DNA of 33,095 nt from an uncultured Clostridia bacterium (lineage in GTDB: Bacteria; Bacillota; Clostridia; Christensenellales; Borkfalkiaceae): contig CANRPN010000011.1 in the NCBI GenBank assembly GCA_947632505.1, positions 1-33,095 on the forward strand, given 5' to 3'. The stretch's first letter is position 1; each line of letters begins with the position of its first letter. The notes under the pieces were generated by a model. It made no database searches. It was not told where the DNA came from and saw nothing but the letters and a program-made list of their open reading frames with translations. Shown here piece by piece: positions 27,727 through 32,820 of the stretch. Position numbers and translations under genes: made by a program.

Positions 27727-27761
27727 ATAGAAAATTTATGATGAATGGAGGAAAACCTATC

Positions 27762-27989
27762 ATGAAGTCTTTGAAAATTTCTCTTGAAATGGCACAGAAA
27801 GTAAAGGAGTTCGTTACGATCACCCAGGGCTGCGAGTGCGAGATCCTTCTCAAAAGCGGCAAGTATGTTGTCGACGCCAAGTCCATCCTCGGCATTTTCA
27901 GCCTTGATTTGAGCAAGCCCCTTACCGTGGAAATTTACAGCGACGACTGCGCGGAGCTTCTTGCACAGCTTCAAAAATTCGCCGCGTAA
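27762..27989 (+). CDS. HPr-like protein without the active-site histidine
   Basis: 75 residues. The C-terminal two thirds match HPr: an ILLKSGKYVVDAKSILGIFSLDL block equals the NGK-x-V-x-KSIMGVMSL region with Ser41 at the place of regulatory Ser46, followed by a strand and the final helix. The N-terminal GxHARPA segment with phosphorylatable His15 is missing; the protein reads ISLEMAQKVKEFV there. It therefore cannot accept phosphate from enzyme I in the normal way. Start at 27762 has GGAGG 10 bases before it. Similar short HPr-domain proteins occur in Clostridia; a regulatory role through the Ser46-type site is possible. Confidence 0.78.
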   Translation: MKSLKISLEMAQKVKEFVTITQGCECEILLKSGKYVVDAKSILGIFSLDLSKPLTVEIYSDDCAELLAQLQKFAA

Positions 27990-28928: not shown

Positions 28929-30131
28929 TCAACTTACTTTGTAGTTTTTTGCAAGCCCCCCCTCGCTTGTCTCTCGGTAGCGGGCGTTGAGGTCTTTTCC
29001 CGTTTCGTACATTGTATGTACGATGAGATCAAAGGAAATTTTTCTCGTGCCGTGCAGGACTTTCGCAAGTTCGGCGCTCGTGAGTGCACGAAGAGCGGCA
29101 ACTGCATTTCGTTCGATACAGGGGATCTGCACATAGCCGCAGACAGGGTCGCAAGTGAGACCCAGCTGGTGTTCGAGCGCAATCTCGGCGGCATATTCGA
29201 TCTCATCCGCCGGCGCATTGAAAAGACGGCACACGGCTGCTGCGGCCATGCTCGTTGCCGTGCCGACCTCCGCCTGGCAGCCGGCCTCCGCGCCGCTGAC
29301 GGAGGCGTTTTGTTTGACAGTGATCCCCACTAACCCCGCCACCGCCAAAGCTGCGATGATCCGATTATCCGAATACCCATGCATTCTGCTCAAATAGAAG
29401 AGCACTGCGGGAAGTACGCCGCATGCGCCGCAGGTGGGTGCGGTGACAATGGTTCCGCCGCTGGCGTTCTCCTCGCTTGTGGCGAACGCAAAGGCGCATA
29501 AGTGCCGCTTTTCCATCTGTGCGGGCGTCTCTTCGCGGTCCACCGTCTCAAAGAGCGTCTTGGCCTTGCGGACGACCTTCAATTTCCCCGGAAGGATCCC
29601 CTCCGCGGTAAGCCCTCTTTTGATCGCCGCCTGCATCGTGTGCCAGACTTCGAGCAAAAAATCTTTGATGTGCCCGTCCTCGAAATCATAGACAACTTGA
29701 TCGAGGGTACAGTTGTGCTCGCGGCAGTATGAGAGGATCTCTTCGAAATTTTGAAAAGGATAGACGTCTCCCCCCTCCGCCGCGGGTTCGCCGGATACCT
29801 GGATCGTGCCCCCGCCGACCGAAAGATAGGTCAGTTTTCCGATGCACTTTTCACCCACATACCCTTCGATCGCAAGCGTATTGGGGTGCGGAATGTTTTC
29901 CTCCTCATAATTGAAAACGATTTCGCAAGGTTTCGGCGCAAGGGTGGAAAGAATGATCTCGTCCGTCAGATGCCCTTTCCCGGTGTAGGCGAGCGACCCG
30001 TACAAGGTCACGCGGAAACGTTCCGCCTCGGGATAGCGGGAGAAAAAGTCTTTTGCGGCGCGCTCGGGCCCCATGGTGTGTGAGCTCGAAGGACCTTTTC
30101 CGATTTTATATAATTCTCTTAAAGATTCCAT
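28929..30131 (-). CDS. sdaA: L-serine ammonia-lyase, single-chain [4Fe-4S] type
   Basis: 400 residues: an N-terminal beta domain beginning SLRELYKIGKGPSSSHTMGP, with the SSSHTMGP motif, and a C-terminal alpha domain with cluster-ligand cysteines in APTCGACG, SGAEAGCQAEVG and LTCDPVCGYVQIPCIERN. It deaminates L-serine to pyruvate and ammonia; the Fe-S cluster makes it oxygen-labile, fitting an anaerobe. Gram-positive enzymes are often split in two subunits, but here both domains are fused. It starts 2 bases after the PurH-like stop codon, so it is co-translated. Confidence 0.94.
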   Translation of the reverse strand: MESLRELYKIGKGPSSSHTMGPERAAKDFFSRYPEAERFRVTLYGSLAYTGKGHLTDEIILSTLAPKPCEIVFNYEEENIPHPNTLAIEGYVGEKCIGKLTYLSVGGGTIQVSGEPAAEGGDVYPFQNFEEILSYCREHNCTLDQVVYDFEDGHIKDFLLEVWHTMQAAIKRGLTAEGILPGKLKVVRKAKTLFETVDREETPAQMEKRHLCAFAFATSEENASGGTIVTAPTCGACGVLPAVLFYLSRMHGYSDNRIIAALAVAGLVGITVKQNASVSGAEAGCQAEVGTATSMAAAAVCRLFNAPADEIEYAAEIALEHQLGLTCDPVCGYVQIPCIERNAVAALRALTSAELAKVLHGTRKISFDLIVHTMYETGKDLNARYRETSEGGLAKNYKVS

Positions 30132-30133
30132 AC

Positions 30134-31660
30134 TCAGTTTTTGAAGTGCCGTTCTCCCGTGCAGAGGACGGCGATTTTATATTTGTCGCAGAGGGAGATA
30201 AATTCCTCCGAACAGTTGCCTGTCTGGATCACGGCCGTGATCCCCGCATTATGGCACATTTCAACACATTCAAGGTCGGGCAGGTCCGCATCGGAGGCGA
30301 GCACGCAGCCCTTAGCCTTTTCCTCCGAAAGCTCGATCGCAAAACGGAGCGCAAGCGTTCGGTTGATCTGCCCCGTGCCGATCCCGACCGTTTCCCCCTC
30401 CCGCCCGAGGACGACTGCGCTCGATCGGGCGTGCTTGGCGACCTTATAACAGAAATTGAGTGCGCGCACTTCCTGCTCCTTTGGCTTGCGTTTCGTGACG
30501 CAGTAGGAGGATGTTCCGGCGAGGGTATCATAGGACTGCACAAGCAATCCGCCGTAAATCTTTTGCAGATCGAAGGTGGAAAATTGCACCTTGCTGCGAA
30601 TGCCCGGCATTTCAAGCAAGATGAGCGTTTCCTTGAAGCGCAGCTCGGTCATTGCCTCGGGCGTGAAGCCCACCGCGAGGATCACTTCGGCGCCAGTCTC
30701 CTTCAATGCGACCGCAAGACGGGTCTCAACTACCCCATTGACGGCAATAATGCCGTTTTTCCCGTGCATGGGATCGGCGTTCTTTGCGCGCAGGAAGGCA
30801 TCGTATATGCTCTCCCCGATCCCCGCGCCGCAGGGAGCGCGATGTTTACAGATGACAGCGGCAGGCTGATCAAATTCCTTGACAAGTTCGAGCGCTGCAT
30901 TGGCGTCATAGATGTTATTGTAGGTCATGACGGGCCCGGCAAGTTGTCTTGCCCGTGCAAGAGACCCTTCTTTGAGAAGCGGCTCGCGGTAGACGGCGGC
31001 CTTTTGGTGCGGATTCTCGCCGTAGCGCATTTCCTGCGCTTTTTCATACGTGACGGTGAAGTTCTGCGGAAAAGGAATTTTCAGTTGGTGGGAAAGATAT
31101 TGCGCCACAAGGGCATCGTAGGAGGCCGTGCAGGAGAAGGCCTTATACATAAAATATTTTCGCTCCTCTTCGGTGAAAACTCCCGCCGCAAGATCGCACA
31201 GGATCCGCTCATAGTCCGAAGGGTCGCATACGGCGATCGTACTTTGAAAGTTTTTGGCCGCCGCGTTGAGCAGCGCCACGCCTCCCGCGTCGATATGCGC
31301 CGCCGCTTCCTCGAAGGGCACGCCCGCCTCCATGTCGTCCTTGAACGGATAGAGGTTGACAATGACGAGTTCAATGGGATAAACGTCATCGGAATCAAGC
31401 TGGGCAAGCTGCTCCGGAGTAAAACGGTTTGCTATGATGCCCGTGTAGATCGCGGGATGGACTGCTCTCACATTGCCGCCGAGCGGCTCCGGATAGCCCG
31501 TGAGATCGTGCGCCGAGATCACCTTGATCCCCGCCTCGCACAACACTTTGCACGTCCCTTCGGTAGCGATGAGTTCATAGCCGTACTCTGTGAGGTAGCG
31601 GCAGAAGTCGGCAAGCCCCTCCTTGTTGTAGACGCTGATATACGCCCTCTTGTTCTTCAT
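30134..31660 (-). CDS. purH: Divergent PurH-family protein
   Basis: 508 residues, full length for PurH (IMP cyclohydrolase plus AICAR formyltransferase), but key motifs differ. Cyclohydrolase part: STGGT reads ATEGT; GRVKTLHP reads GNVRAVHP; IDIGGP reads IDAGGV; NLYPF and the AAAKN lysine remain. Formyltransferase part: RYGENPHQ remains; KHxNPCG reads KHRAPCG (near residue 272); KSNAIV reads RSSAVV; GAGQMSR reads GTGQINR; SDAFFPF reads SDADLPD; IQPGGSIRD reads IQTGNCSEE. Whether it still makes IMP is uncertain. Start at 31660 has AAGGGGGG upstream; the frame extends 12 more codons. It precedes the serine dehydratase by 2 bases. Confidence 0.8.
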   Translation of the reverse strand: MKNKRAYISVYNKEGLADFCRYLTEYGYELIATEGTCKVLCEAGIKVISAHDLTGYPEPLGGNVRAVHPAIYTGIIANRFTPEQLAQLDSDDVYPIELVIVNLYPFKDDMEAGVPFEEAAAHIDAGGVALLNAAAKNFQSTIAVCDPSDYERILCDLAAGVFTEEERKYFMYKAFSCTASYDALVAQYLSHQLKIPFPQNFTVTYEKAQEMRYGENPHQKAAVYREPLLKEGSLARARQLAGPVMTYNNIYDANAALELVKEFDQPAAVICKHRAPCGAGIGESIYDAFLRAKNADPMHGKNGIIAVNGVVETRLAVALKETGAEVILAVGFTPEAMTELRFKETLILLEMPGIRSKVQFSTFDLQKIYGGLLVQSYDTLAGTSSYCVTKRKPKEQEVRALNFCYKVAKHARSSAVVLGREGETVGIGTGQINRTLALRFAIELSEEKAKGCVLASDADLPDLECVEMCHNAGITAVIQTGNCSEEFISLCDKYKIAVLCTGERHFKN

Positions 31661-31673
31661 GTATCTTCCCCCC

Positions 31674-31701
31674 TTGTATCTTTCCCCAAAACGCACATAC
31701 T
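31674..31701 (+). promoter_or_regulatory. Weak promoter upstream of the DUF1294-like gene
   Basis: TTGTAT (31674-31679), 16-base spacer, CATACT (31696-31701), with the ATG 9 bases further. There is no ribosome site, so the transcript would have almost no leader. Confidence 0.4.
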
Positions 31702-31710
31702 GATTGCGCT

Positions 31711-32001
31711 ATGGTTCTGCTCTATATCTTGCTCACAGTGTATATTCTTGCCGTAAACTTTTATGCCTTCCGTCTCGTGAAAACGCAGCGGGAGGATGTC
31801 GAAGCGGGCGGAGAACCGGCAGGCGACGGAAAACTCTTGTTGGCGGCGCTCCTGGGCGGCGCAGCGGCAATTTATGTCTCCATGTTTGCCATGCGGTACC
31901 GATTGAGCAATCTTCTGCTCATGATCGCAATGCCCGTTCTTGCGGTACTGAATATCTATGGCTTTTATCTCGGTTTTCGGTCGGTGTGGATGTTTTTATG
32001 A
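31711..32001 (+). CDS. Small DUF1294-like membrane protein
   Basis: 96 residues with three hydrophobic stretches (about 2-20, 41-60 and 68-90). The arrangement (short N-terminal helix, charged link, LLLAALLGGAAAIYVSMFAMRYR, last helix) resembles DUF1294 proteins, whose core reads LL-x-ALLGG-x-x-G...RHK, though the RHKT end is changed to RYRLS. No function is known. No Shine-Dalgarno site precedes the ATG. Its last 6 bases overlap the stop region of the convergent HAD gene. Reading frame and membrane nature are clear; family call is tentative. Confidence 0.6.
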   Translation: MVLLYILLTVYILAVNFYAFRLVKTQREDVEAGGEPAGDGKLLLAALLGGAAAIYVSMFAMRYRLSNLLLMIAMPVLAVLNIYGFYLGFRSVWMFL

Positions 32002-32820
32002 GTCGAAACCGTGTTCCATGAGCCATTTGCAGACGCCATCCTCTTCACAGTAACCGACGACGCCCGTCGCTTTCTCTTTGAGCCACTGATCGGCGTTCAT
32101 CACGGCATATTTTTGTTCGCAGACGTCGAACATATCCGAATCGTTGGCGGTATCACCGAAGCAGATCACCCGGTCACAGCCGAGAAACTGTCTTAGGAAG
32201 GCAACGCCGTTTGCCTTTGTCGCAGCGCGCGGCGAAATTTCCATCCAAAAGTCGTTTTGATACATTTCTTGATGGAAGATACAGATGAAACGGGGATCAT
32301 ATTTGAGAACATTCCAGGCCTGTTCAAGATGCTCCCGTGCGCCGATACAGTGGAAATAGAATACATAATCGGCGAGAAGTTCCGCTTCGGAGTGAACGGG
32401 CGCAAGGCGGCTTTCCCCTCGGCGACGGAATAAATAGCGGCGCATTCCCTCTGTTTCGCGTTCCACGATCCATTTCACTTTCTCTTTCCCCTCTTGTGCG
32501 GAATAAGCAAAGGGATGAATATCGAAGGAATTGAGCACATCGAGGATATAGCGTTTTTCCTCTTCCGAAAGAAGGATGGCACGCAGCGTTTTGTCGGTTG
32601 TGTAGTCATAGAGAAGCCCGCCGTTGTACAAAACGACGGGAATATTCAAGTTCAAACCTGAGGTGGCATTTTTGGCGCTCTCGGCCGAGCGGGCGGTGGC
32701 AAAGGTAAAGAGAAGTCCTTCACCGATGAGCCTGTTAAGATGTTCGCAGCTGTAAGCTGAGACACGCTGCTCCTTGGTGAGCAGAGTTCCGTCGAGGTCG
32801 GTCACGAATAATGTTTTCAT
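31996..32820 (-). CDS. HAD-superfamily phosphatase, Cof/IIB type
   Basis: 274 residues. Motif I is FVTDLDGTLL (residues 5-14) with the nucleophile Asp; motif II lies in FATARSAES; the IIB cap occupies about residues 85-195; the lysine of motif III is in RAATKANGVAFL; motif IV is CFGDTANDSDMF. It probably dephosphorylates a sugar or nucleotide phosphate; the substrate cannot be told. It has its own promoter and an AAAGGA site before the ATG. Confidence 0.93.
   Translation of the reverse strand: MKTLFVTDLDGTLLTKEQRVSAYSCEHLNRLIGEGLLFTFATARSAESAKNATSGLNLNIPVVLYNGGLLYDYTTDKTLRAILLSEEEKRYILDVLNSFDIHPFAYSAQEGKEKVKWIVERETEGMRRYLFRRRGESRLAPVHSEAELLADYVFYFHCIGAREHLEQAWNVLKYDPRFICIFHQEMYQNDFWMEISPRAATKANGVAFLRQFLGCDRVICFGDTANDSDMFDVCEQKYAVMNADQWLKEKATGVVGYCEEDGVCKWLMEHGFDS

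Follow-up and report, generated by a model that had tools for sequence, protein, structure and literature searches.

In the abstract of PMC6797443, PurH is presented as a two-headed enzyme in near-uniform use outside archaea. By family name, its two reactions also belong to PurV-type (NF005492/PRK07106) and PurO (PF07826) proteins, both of which are present in the genome studied here. In literature searches, none of the titles and abstracts listed concerned a displaced PurH in these bacteria. The window, i.e., the whole stretch of 33,095 nucleotides that was analyzed, carries at 30134-31660 of the reverse strand a gene for a PurH-like protein of 508 amino acids plus stop, for which the working name PurHL is used. 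The longest ORF spans 30134-31696 (-) and begins at GTG, but the true start is likely the ATG at 31660, given the GGGGGG just upstream, a good ribosome-binding site. Profile search placed PF02142 on residues 16-128 and PF01808 on residues 134-443, which is the domain order of the PurH superfamily, and the protein comprises an IMP-cyclohydrolase half (residues 1-195) and an AICAR-formyltransferase half (residues 196-508). Homology to PurH/ATIC is full-length, for example to the PurH of M. tuberculosis (3zzm; phmmer E-value 6.7e-95). PurHL passed NF002049 (507 bits, cut-off 402) and missed TIGR00355 (454 bits, cut-off 528), and the PurV-type profile NF005492 gave it 85 bits. Since one equivalog cut-off is passed, NCBI's own model would name it PurH. 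The structure prediction came out poor, with a mean pLDDT of 61, and was left unused; the pockets were thus read from sequence together with presumed or cited contacts.

The preliminary description of this DNA had reported an intact PurH homologue with the altered motifs GNVRAVHP, ATEGT, KHRAPCG, RSSAVV, SDADLPD and IQTGNCSEE on an intact scaffold (RYGENPHQ, NLYPF, AAAKN and the KH pair). The ORF and the domain matches confirm the homologue, the likely start bears out its coordinates, and every one of these motifs is present in the window protein. The pattern is shared across many assemblies (69 sequences, reduced to 40 distinct copies), hence it reflects neither chance nor an error of a single assembly. 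We interpret PurHL as a displaced PurH that has been turned to a new use, as a nucleotide-binding protein or enzyme that works without folate, a reading drawn from sequence that we hold at a probability of roughly 0.55.

PurHL was detected in one genus only, apparently Candidatus Gallimonas, where 42 of 103 genomes have it; this count is the 45 genomes with a match minus G179, G640 and G036, which are weak cross-hits to PurV, and it includes one partial match (G008, residues 254-509) and two matches split by a deletion (G020 and G185). Among 253 genomes of the family that are at least 85% complete, no full-length match in the range of PurHL was listed outside the genus. The other genera carry canonical PurH, a PurV-type match or nothing, with 21 matchless genomes and some places unlisted, and the partial matches in five genomes of genus g28 (G091, G121, G122, G130 and G157) were counted as split canonical PurH by assumption. 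Within the order (395 genomes), nothing outside the genus came closer than 51% identity, and a Melainabacteria contig among the scan matches carries a canonical PurH that is only 31% identical. This one family is divided between genera with PurH and genera with a PurV-type match. In a genus with mostly PurH, G230 and G242 gave a PurV-type score alone, and several genomes of the PurHL genus (g1) are devoid of all de novo purine genes tested, apparently through more than one loss.

The preliminary description had also raised the possibility of a second, canonical purH in the genome. None was detected in the 103 genomes of the genus, many of which are incomplete. In the genome of the window, which is 88% complete at 1.79 Mb in 130 contigs, purN was recognized by eye and a PurO-family protein by PF07826 (199 bits). 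A stand-alone AICAR formyltransferase of the PRK07106 type, here PurV, is split over two contigs and followed by purD. In G004 the operon order is purE-C-F-M-N-O-V-D, with PurO, PurV (662.7 bits, NF005492), PurC and PurD (504.4 bits) recognized by search and the others by eye. The PurO-family protein falls below the NCBIfam PurO cut-off of 150, with 63.5 bits in G004 and 56.1 bits in the genome of the window, but far above that of Pfam. The operons examined carry PurO-family and PurV-type proteins in place of PurH, and PurHL sits away from the purine operon. A purine operon with a PurO-family cyclohydrolase and a stand-alone AICAR formyltransferase in a bacterium was recorded at L007:7242-8072 and L194:6193-8127. 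A second MGS-domain match, at C10, proved not to be a second PurH, as it lies in a frame of 1346 amino acids that is CarB-like by size.

Concerning the cyclohydrolase half, Lys66, Tyr104, Asp125 and Lys137 are named as important residues in PMC3261824. Residues were counted, in human numbering, in the 40 distinct PurHL copies and in 40 canonical PurH proteins from the family and the order. Tyr104 and Asp125 are invariant in PurHL, while position 137 is Lys in 24 copies, Arg in 15 and Met in one. Canonical Arg64, Lys66 and Thr67 are all missing from 40/40 copies: Lys66 is replaced by Arg and Thr67 by Ala in 38 each, compared with Lys and Thr in 40/40 canonical proteins, and Arg64 is replaced by Lys in 34. 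In the window, GRVKTLHP has become GNVRAVHP (31454-31477 (-), residues 62-69), with Arg64 changed to Asn, Lys66 to Arg and Thr67 to Ala by alignment; the replacement of Arg64 claimed initially is real, but the Asn is atypical, since only the window and L055 have it. Similarly, where STGGT reads ATEGT (31553-31567 (-), residues 32-36), the change of Gly35 to Glu, shared by 36/40 copies, is indeed new, but the first letter is not odd, as chicken ATIC reads ASGGT. The residues that we take to hold the phosphate are largely kept; in window numbering, Ser9 is found in 40/40 copies, Thr36 in 39/40 and Lys13, Thr33 and Gly35 in 38/40, and all departures at the latter four come from L048 and L162. Of the letters newly fixed in 38 copies and not seen in canonical PurH, 14 lie in the cyclohydrolase half and three in the other, a contrast that is an indication only, given that the comparison sets are unequal in breadth.

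Since the exchange of Lys66 for Arg is conservative, Tyr104 and Asp125 are invariant and position 137 is Lys or Arg in 39/40 copies, cyclohydrolase activity may survive, and its retention is the main rival to repurposing. The N-terminal half would then still close FAICAR to IMP in reserve for PurO, with the C-terminal half being structural only. Such a spare enzyme would agree with the N-terminal half being the most conserved part within the clade (79% identity) and with the low score of the PurO-family protein. Among genus genomes of at least 85% completeness, PurHL is also commoner with a PurV match (28/29) than without (28/44; Fisher p 0.0013, with kinship uncorrected and the weak partial match of G206 counted as PurV), an association that would be in keeping with a function in purine synthesis. 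Yet PurV occurs without PurHL in 10 of 36 other genomes of the genus and PurO is present in all 10, which argues that PurHL is dispensable for completing the pathway, and the loss of Arg64, Lys66 and Thr67 throughout also speaks against the rival.

Two exceptional cases likewise speak against it. G030 (99% complete) gave no match for PurC, PurD, PurO, PurV or HisG and still has an intact PurHL, with one private change at otherwise invariant columns and the Met at position 137. In G020 and G185 (L048:7455-8885 and L162:2721-4157) the IMPCH loop itself is deleted, in all likelihood by one event as the two are sisters, whereas the frame stays open and the nucleotide set of the C-terminal half is conserved. 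This would make the C-terminal half the seat of the retained function, although the strong constraint on the N-terminal half in other copies indicates that it matters too. On balance, we regard retained cyclohydrolase activity as a serious contender, but a considerably less probable one than repurposing. A link to AICAR derived from histidine synthesis was also considered and set aside, since HisG was not found in the genome of the window, in G005-G007 or in G030, all of which carry PurHL.

As regards its genomic site, PurHL is followed by the gene of SdaA, a single-chain L-serine ammonia-lyase (28929-30131 (-)), whose ATG lies 2 nt after the PurHL stop. On the other side, divergent from PurHL, lies smp (31711-32001 (+)), which encodes a hydrophobic protein of 96 amino acids without Pfam family and serves as a marker of the site, and a Cof-type HAD hydrolase (31996-32820 (-)) forms the opposite flank. 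In the 33 PurHL loci mapped, from 32 of the 42 genomes that carry the gene, smp adjoins PurHL in 32, Cof lies beyond in 32 and SdaA adjoins in 23; the exceptions are L051, which begins at a contig edge, and L159, without an smp match. A search of 20 genomes without PurHL, seven of which had no clear Cof orthologue, yielded 13 loci, with Cof and smp in 13/13, PurHL in 0/13 and SdaA next in 12/13. A functional link between PurHL and SdaA is thus suggestive only, given that SdaA holds the site without PurHL as well; the serine dehydratase alpha domain (SDH_alpha) was found in 38/42 PurHL genomes and 49/61 others, and gave no match in G020 or G185. At Rfam gathering scores, the search for RNA control such as riboswitches returned tRNAs alone, in the window and in eight related loci. 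G200 has two PurHL loci (L156 and L157, with 89% and 73% identity to that of the window), each with its own surrounding block, and is thus probably a mixed bin of two species. Elsewhere in the window, 27738-27989 encodes an HPr-like protein (PF00381) whose N-terminal stretch seems to be without what we take to be the usual phosphorylated histidine motif.

The 20 copies of PurHL included in a careful 46-row tree come out as a single clade (support 100/100), and in a quick tree of 82 rows all 40 PurHL rows lie on one side of a branch (support 100). The clade falls with other PurH from its own family (82/99), its sister being the canonical PurH of G225 from another genus (84/95, moderate), so that acquisition from a distant lineage was rejected, on moderate support. 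Its stem measures 0.9 changes per column, compared with 0.12 for the sister tip. PurHL thus falls outside the canonical enzymes, on a long-stemmed clade of its own, and the suggestion of a neofunctionalised paralogue agrees with this clade, the second route and purifying selection. Nevertheless, since canonical PurH is undetected in the 103 genomes, PurHL seems better described as the old PurH of the lineage, retained after displacement, than as a duplicate.

Across 47 of the 53 loci, a tree of neighboring proteins implies eight changes in the presence of PurHL, at least six of them forced by supported branches, which shows that the gene is often missing and non-essential. We read the pattern as ancient presence with repeated loss, although the counts alone fit gain too. 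This patchiness (42/103), the IMPCH site deleted in two copies and a variable C-terminal quarter (mean identity 57% within the clade) could suggest a slowly dying relic, without selected function and lost lineage by lineage. Selection makes this improbable. For the whole gene, the 12 closest disjoint pairs gave an omega of 0.027-0.086, the pair with the deleted loop 0.144 and seven more distant pairs 0.09-0.25, estimates that are uncertain where dS exceeds 1, as it does in many of them. No internal stop codons occur in the matches across the genus (that of G008 being partial), and Lys266, His267, Arg451, Arg588 and others are retained in 40/40 copies across deep divergence. Between genomes within the clade, the divergence of PurHL is similar to that of SdaA (ratio 0.91), Cof (0.86) and Nudix (0.90); it is lower than that of smp (0.65) and hyp238 (0.56) and higher than that of DUF4364 (2.27), CoaX (1.39) and HomDH (1.25). 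Neither the interrupted frames nor the neutral evolution of a pseudogene were therefore observed, and the original judgment that this is not decay holds. Rapid change that later gives way to constraint is expected of repurposing but not of decay.

In the formyltransferase half, AICAR is contacted by Arg208, Tyr209, Lys267, His268, an Asn, an Arg, a Phe, Arg589 and Asp340 according to PMC3261824, whose "human" numbers seem to us to follow the chicken enzyme, with a few misprints; these contacts were provisionally mapped onto PurHL by alignment. Tyr208, Lys266, His267, the Glu aligned with human position 339, Arg451, Arg588 and Phe590 are kept in 40/40 copies, and it was hence an overstatement that nearly every substrate-contact motif differs, even though the motifs listed at the time are changed. 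The Lys266-His267 pair, which presumably has the catalytic role in AICAR formyltransferase, corresponds to Lys272-His273 of PurHL (30842-30847 (-)). By contrast, Asn431, present in 40/40 canonical proteins, is Ser in 40/40 copies (Ser414, within Ser413-Ser414 at 30419-30424 (-)), so that one AICAR contact is lost if it is the Asn of PMC3261824. With Arg207 replaced by Leu in 15/40 copies in addition, the nucleotide side is not kept in full.

The folate side fares worse. In docking studies (PMC10186366, PMC10461232), Phe315 stacks with antifolates, and Asp546 is named as a contact in one of them. Position 315 is Arg or Lys in 32/40 copies and Phe, Tyr or Trp in none, with a Phe one place earlier in 13/40, for which reason the alignment register is not fully safe here; position 546 is Glu in 29/40 and Asp in 2/40. 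Positions 541 and 544, which we assume to be folate contacts, are aromatic in 0/40 copies, while 541 is Phe or Tyr in 40/40 canonical proteins. They correspond to residues 459 and 462 of SDADLPD (30275-30295 (-), residues 456-462), the altered SDAFFPF, and Phe is retained at position 542 (residue 460) in 6/40. The C-terminal His of 40/40 related canonical PurH is absent from all copies. Taken over the 40 copies, these counts suggest that most of the nucleotide side stays while the folate side goes.

The notion of a variant bifunctional enzyme, i.e., a full PurH with tolerated changes that acts as an isozyme for other conditions, draws on the full length and domain order, the NF002049 score and the invariant Lys-His pair, and the aromatic residues one place before 315 or at 542 mean that some copies could retain part of the folate side. 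It is weakened by the second route, the separate clade and the missed TIGR00355 cut-off, and the uniform loss of Asn431, of the aromatics at 541 and 544 and of the terminal His, together with the basic residues at 315, renders it less probable still than a relic. That PurHL is instead a folate-free enzyme of purine-nucleotide breakdown, whose rebuilt N-terminal half opens an IMP-like ring and whose Lys-His half removes formate hydrolytically, with the serine dehydratase disposing of the one-carbon/serine end, so that a displaced synthesis enzyme would run purine synthesis backwards, strikes us as the least probable of all.

We thus return to repurposing as the preferred explanation. As selection still preserves an altered and displaced gene, PurHL has probably been given another job. 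Computation shows the homology, the second route, the single origin, the pattern in the substitutions and the purifying selection; displacement, the end of folate use, nucleotide binding and a new role are inferred. In the ancestor of the genus, the PurO-like and PurV-type enzymes of the purine operon would have taken over the final two steps towards IMP, and the old PurH would have landed between smp and sdaA, evolved fast and then come under renewed constraint. The C-terminal half would mostly retain its AICAR-type ribonucleotide pocket along with the Lys-His pair, and with Asn431 and the folate-side aromatics lost it would most likely be incapable of formyl transfer from 10-formyl-tetrahydrofolate. 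The N-terminal half may keep its presumed phosphate grip and Tyr104/Asp125 around a rebuilt putative base-recognition loop (K66R, T67A, R64K, G35E). PurHL is accordingly predicted to bind a phosphoribosyl (purine-type) nucleotide, most surely in the C-terminal half and without folate, and it could then either run a folate-independent reaction or serve as a nucleotide-binding regulator.

PurHL looks like a natural case in which an ancient two-headed enzyme was replaced in a gut bacterium and then kept for something else, with the stages before and after preserved within one family, in genera with canonical PurH, in genera with PurV-type proteins and in this genus with both kinds of gene. Naming it PurH could yield wrong assignments of genes to reactions, and by comparison with it, PurH residues that serve the folate could be told apart from those that serve the nucleotide. 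Among known systems, PurH/ATIC shares with PurHL both domains in order, the Lys-His pair, Tyr104, Asp125 and Arg451/Arg588; unlike it, PurHL has Ser for Asn431, lacks the folate-side aromatics, has Lys66, Thr67, Arg64 and Gly35 replaced and, in contrast to the usual PurH, lies outside the pur operon in a genome with PurO and PurV. The nearest relative found is the canonical PurH of genus g33 (L174, G225), with 51% identity over PurHL residues 3-508. The L174 protein has stretches such as VEFCQYLVEYGYE and AVGFTPEAM in common with PurHL, but unlike PurHL it keeps GRVKTLHP, STGGT, KHANPCG, SNAIV, SDAFFPF and a terminal RHFKH, and purD is next to it. PurV differs from PurHL in being a stand-alone formyltransferase with SDAFFPF intact. 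Finally, ForH (PDB 6nko), which we take to be the PurH-domain homologue of the formycin pathway, is a relative of the cyclohydrolase domain with another task and matches the N-terminal half of PurHL with 79 bits. The names of the PurHL neighbors do not suggest a formycin pathway, and ForH is a single domain of 216 amino acids, whereas PurHL is full-length.
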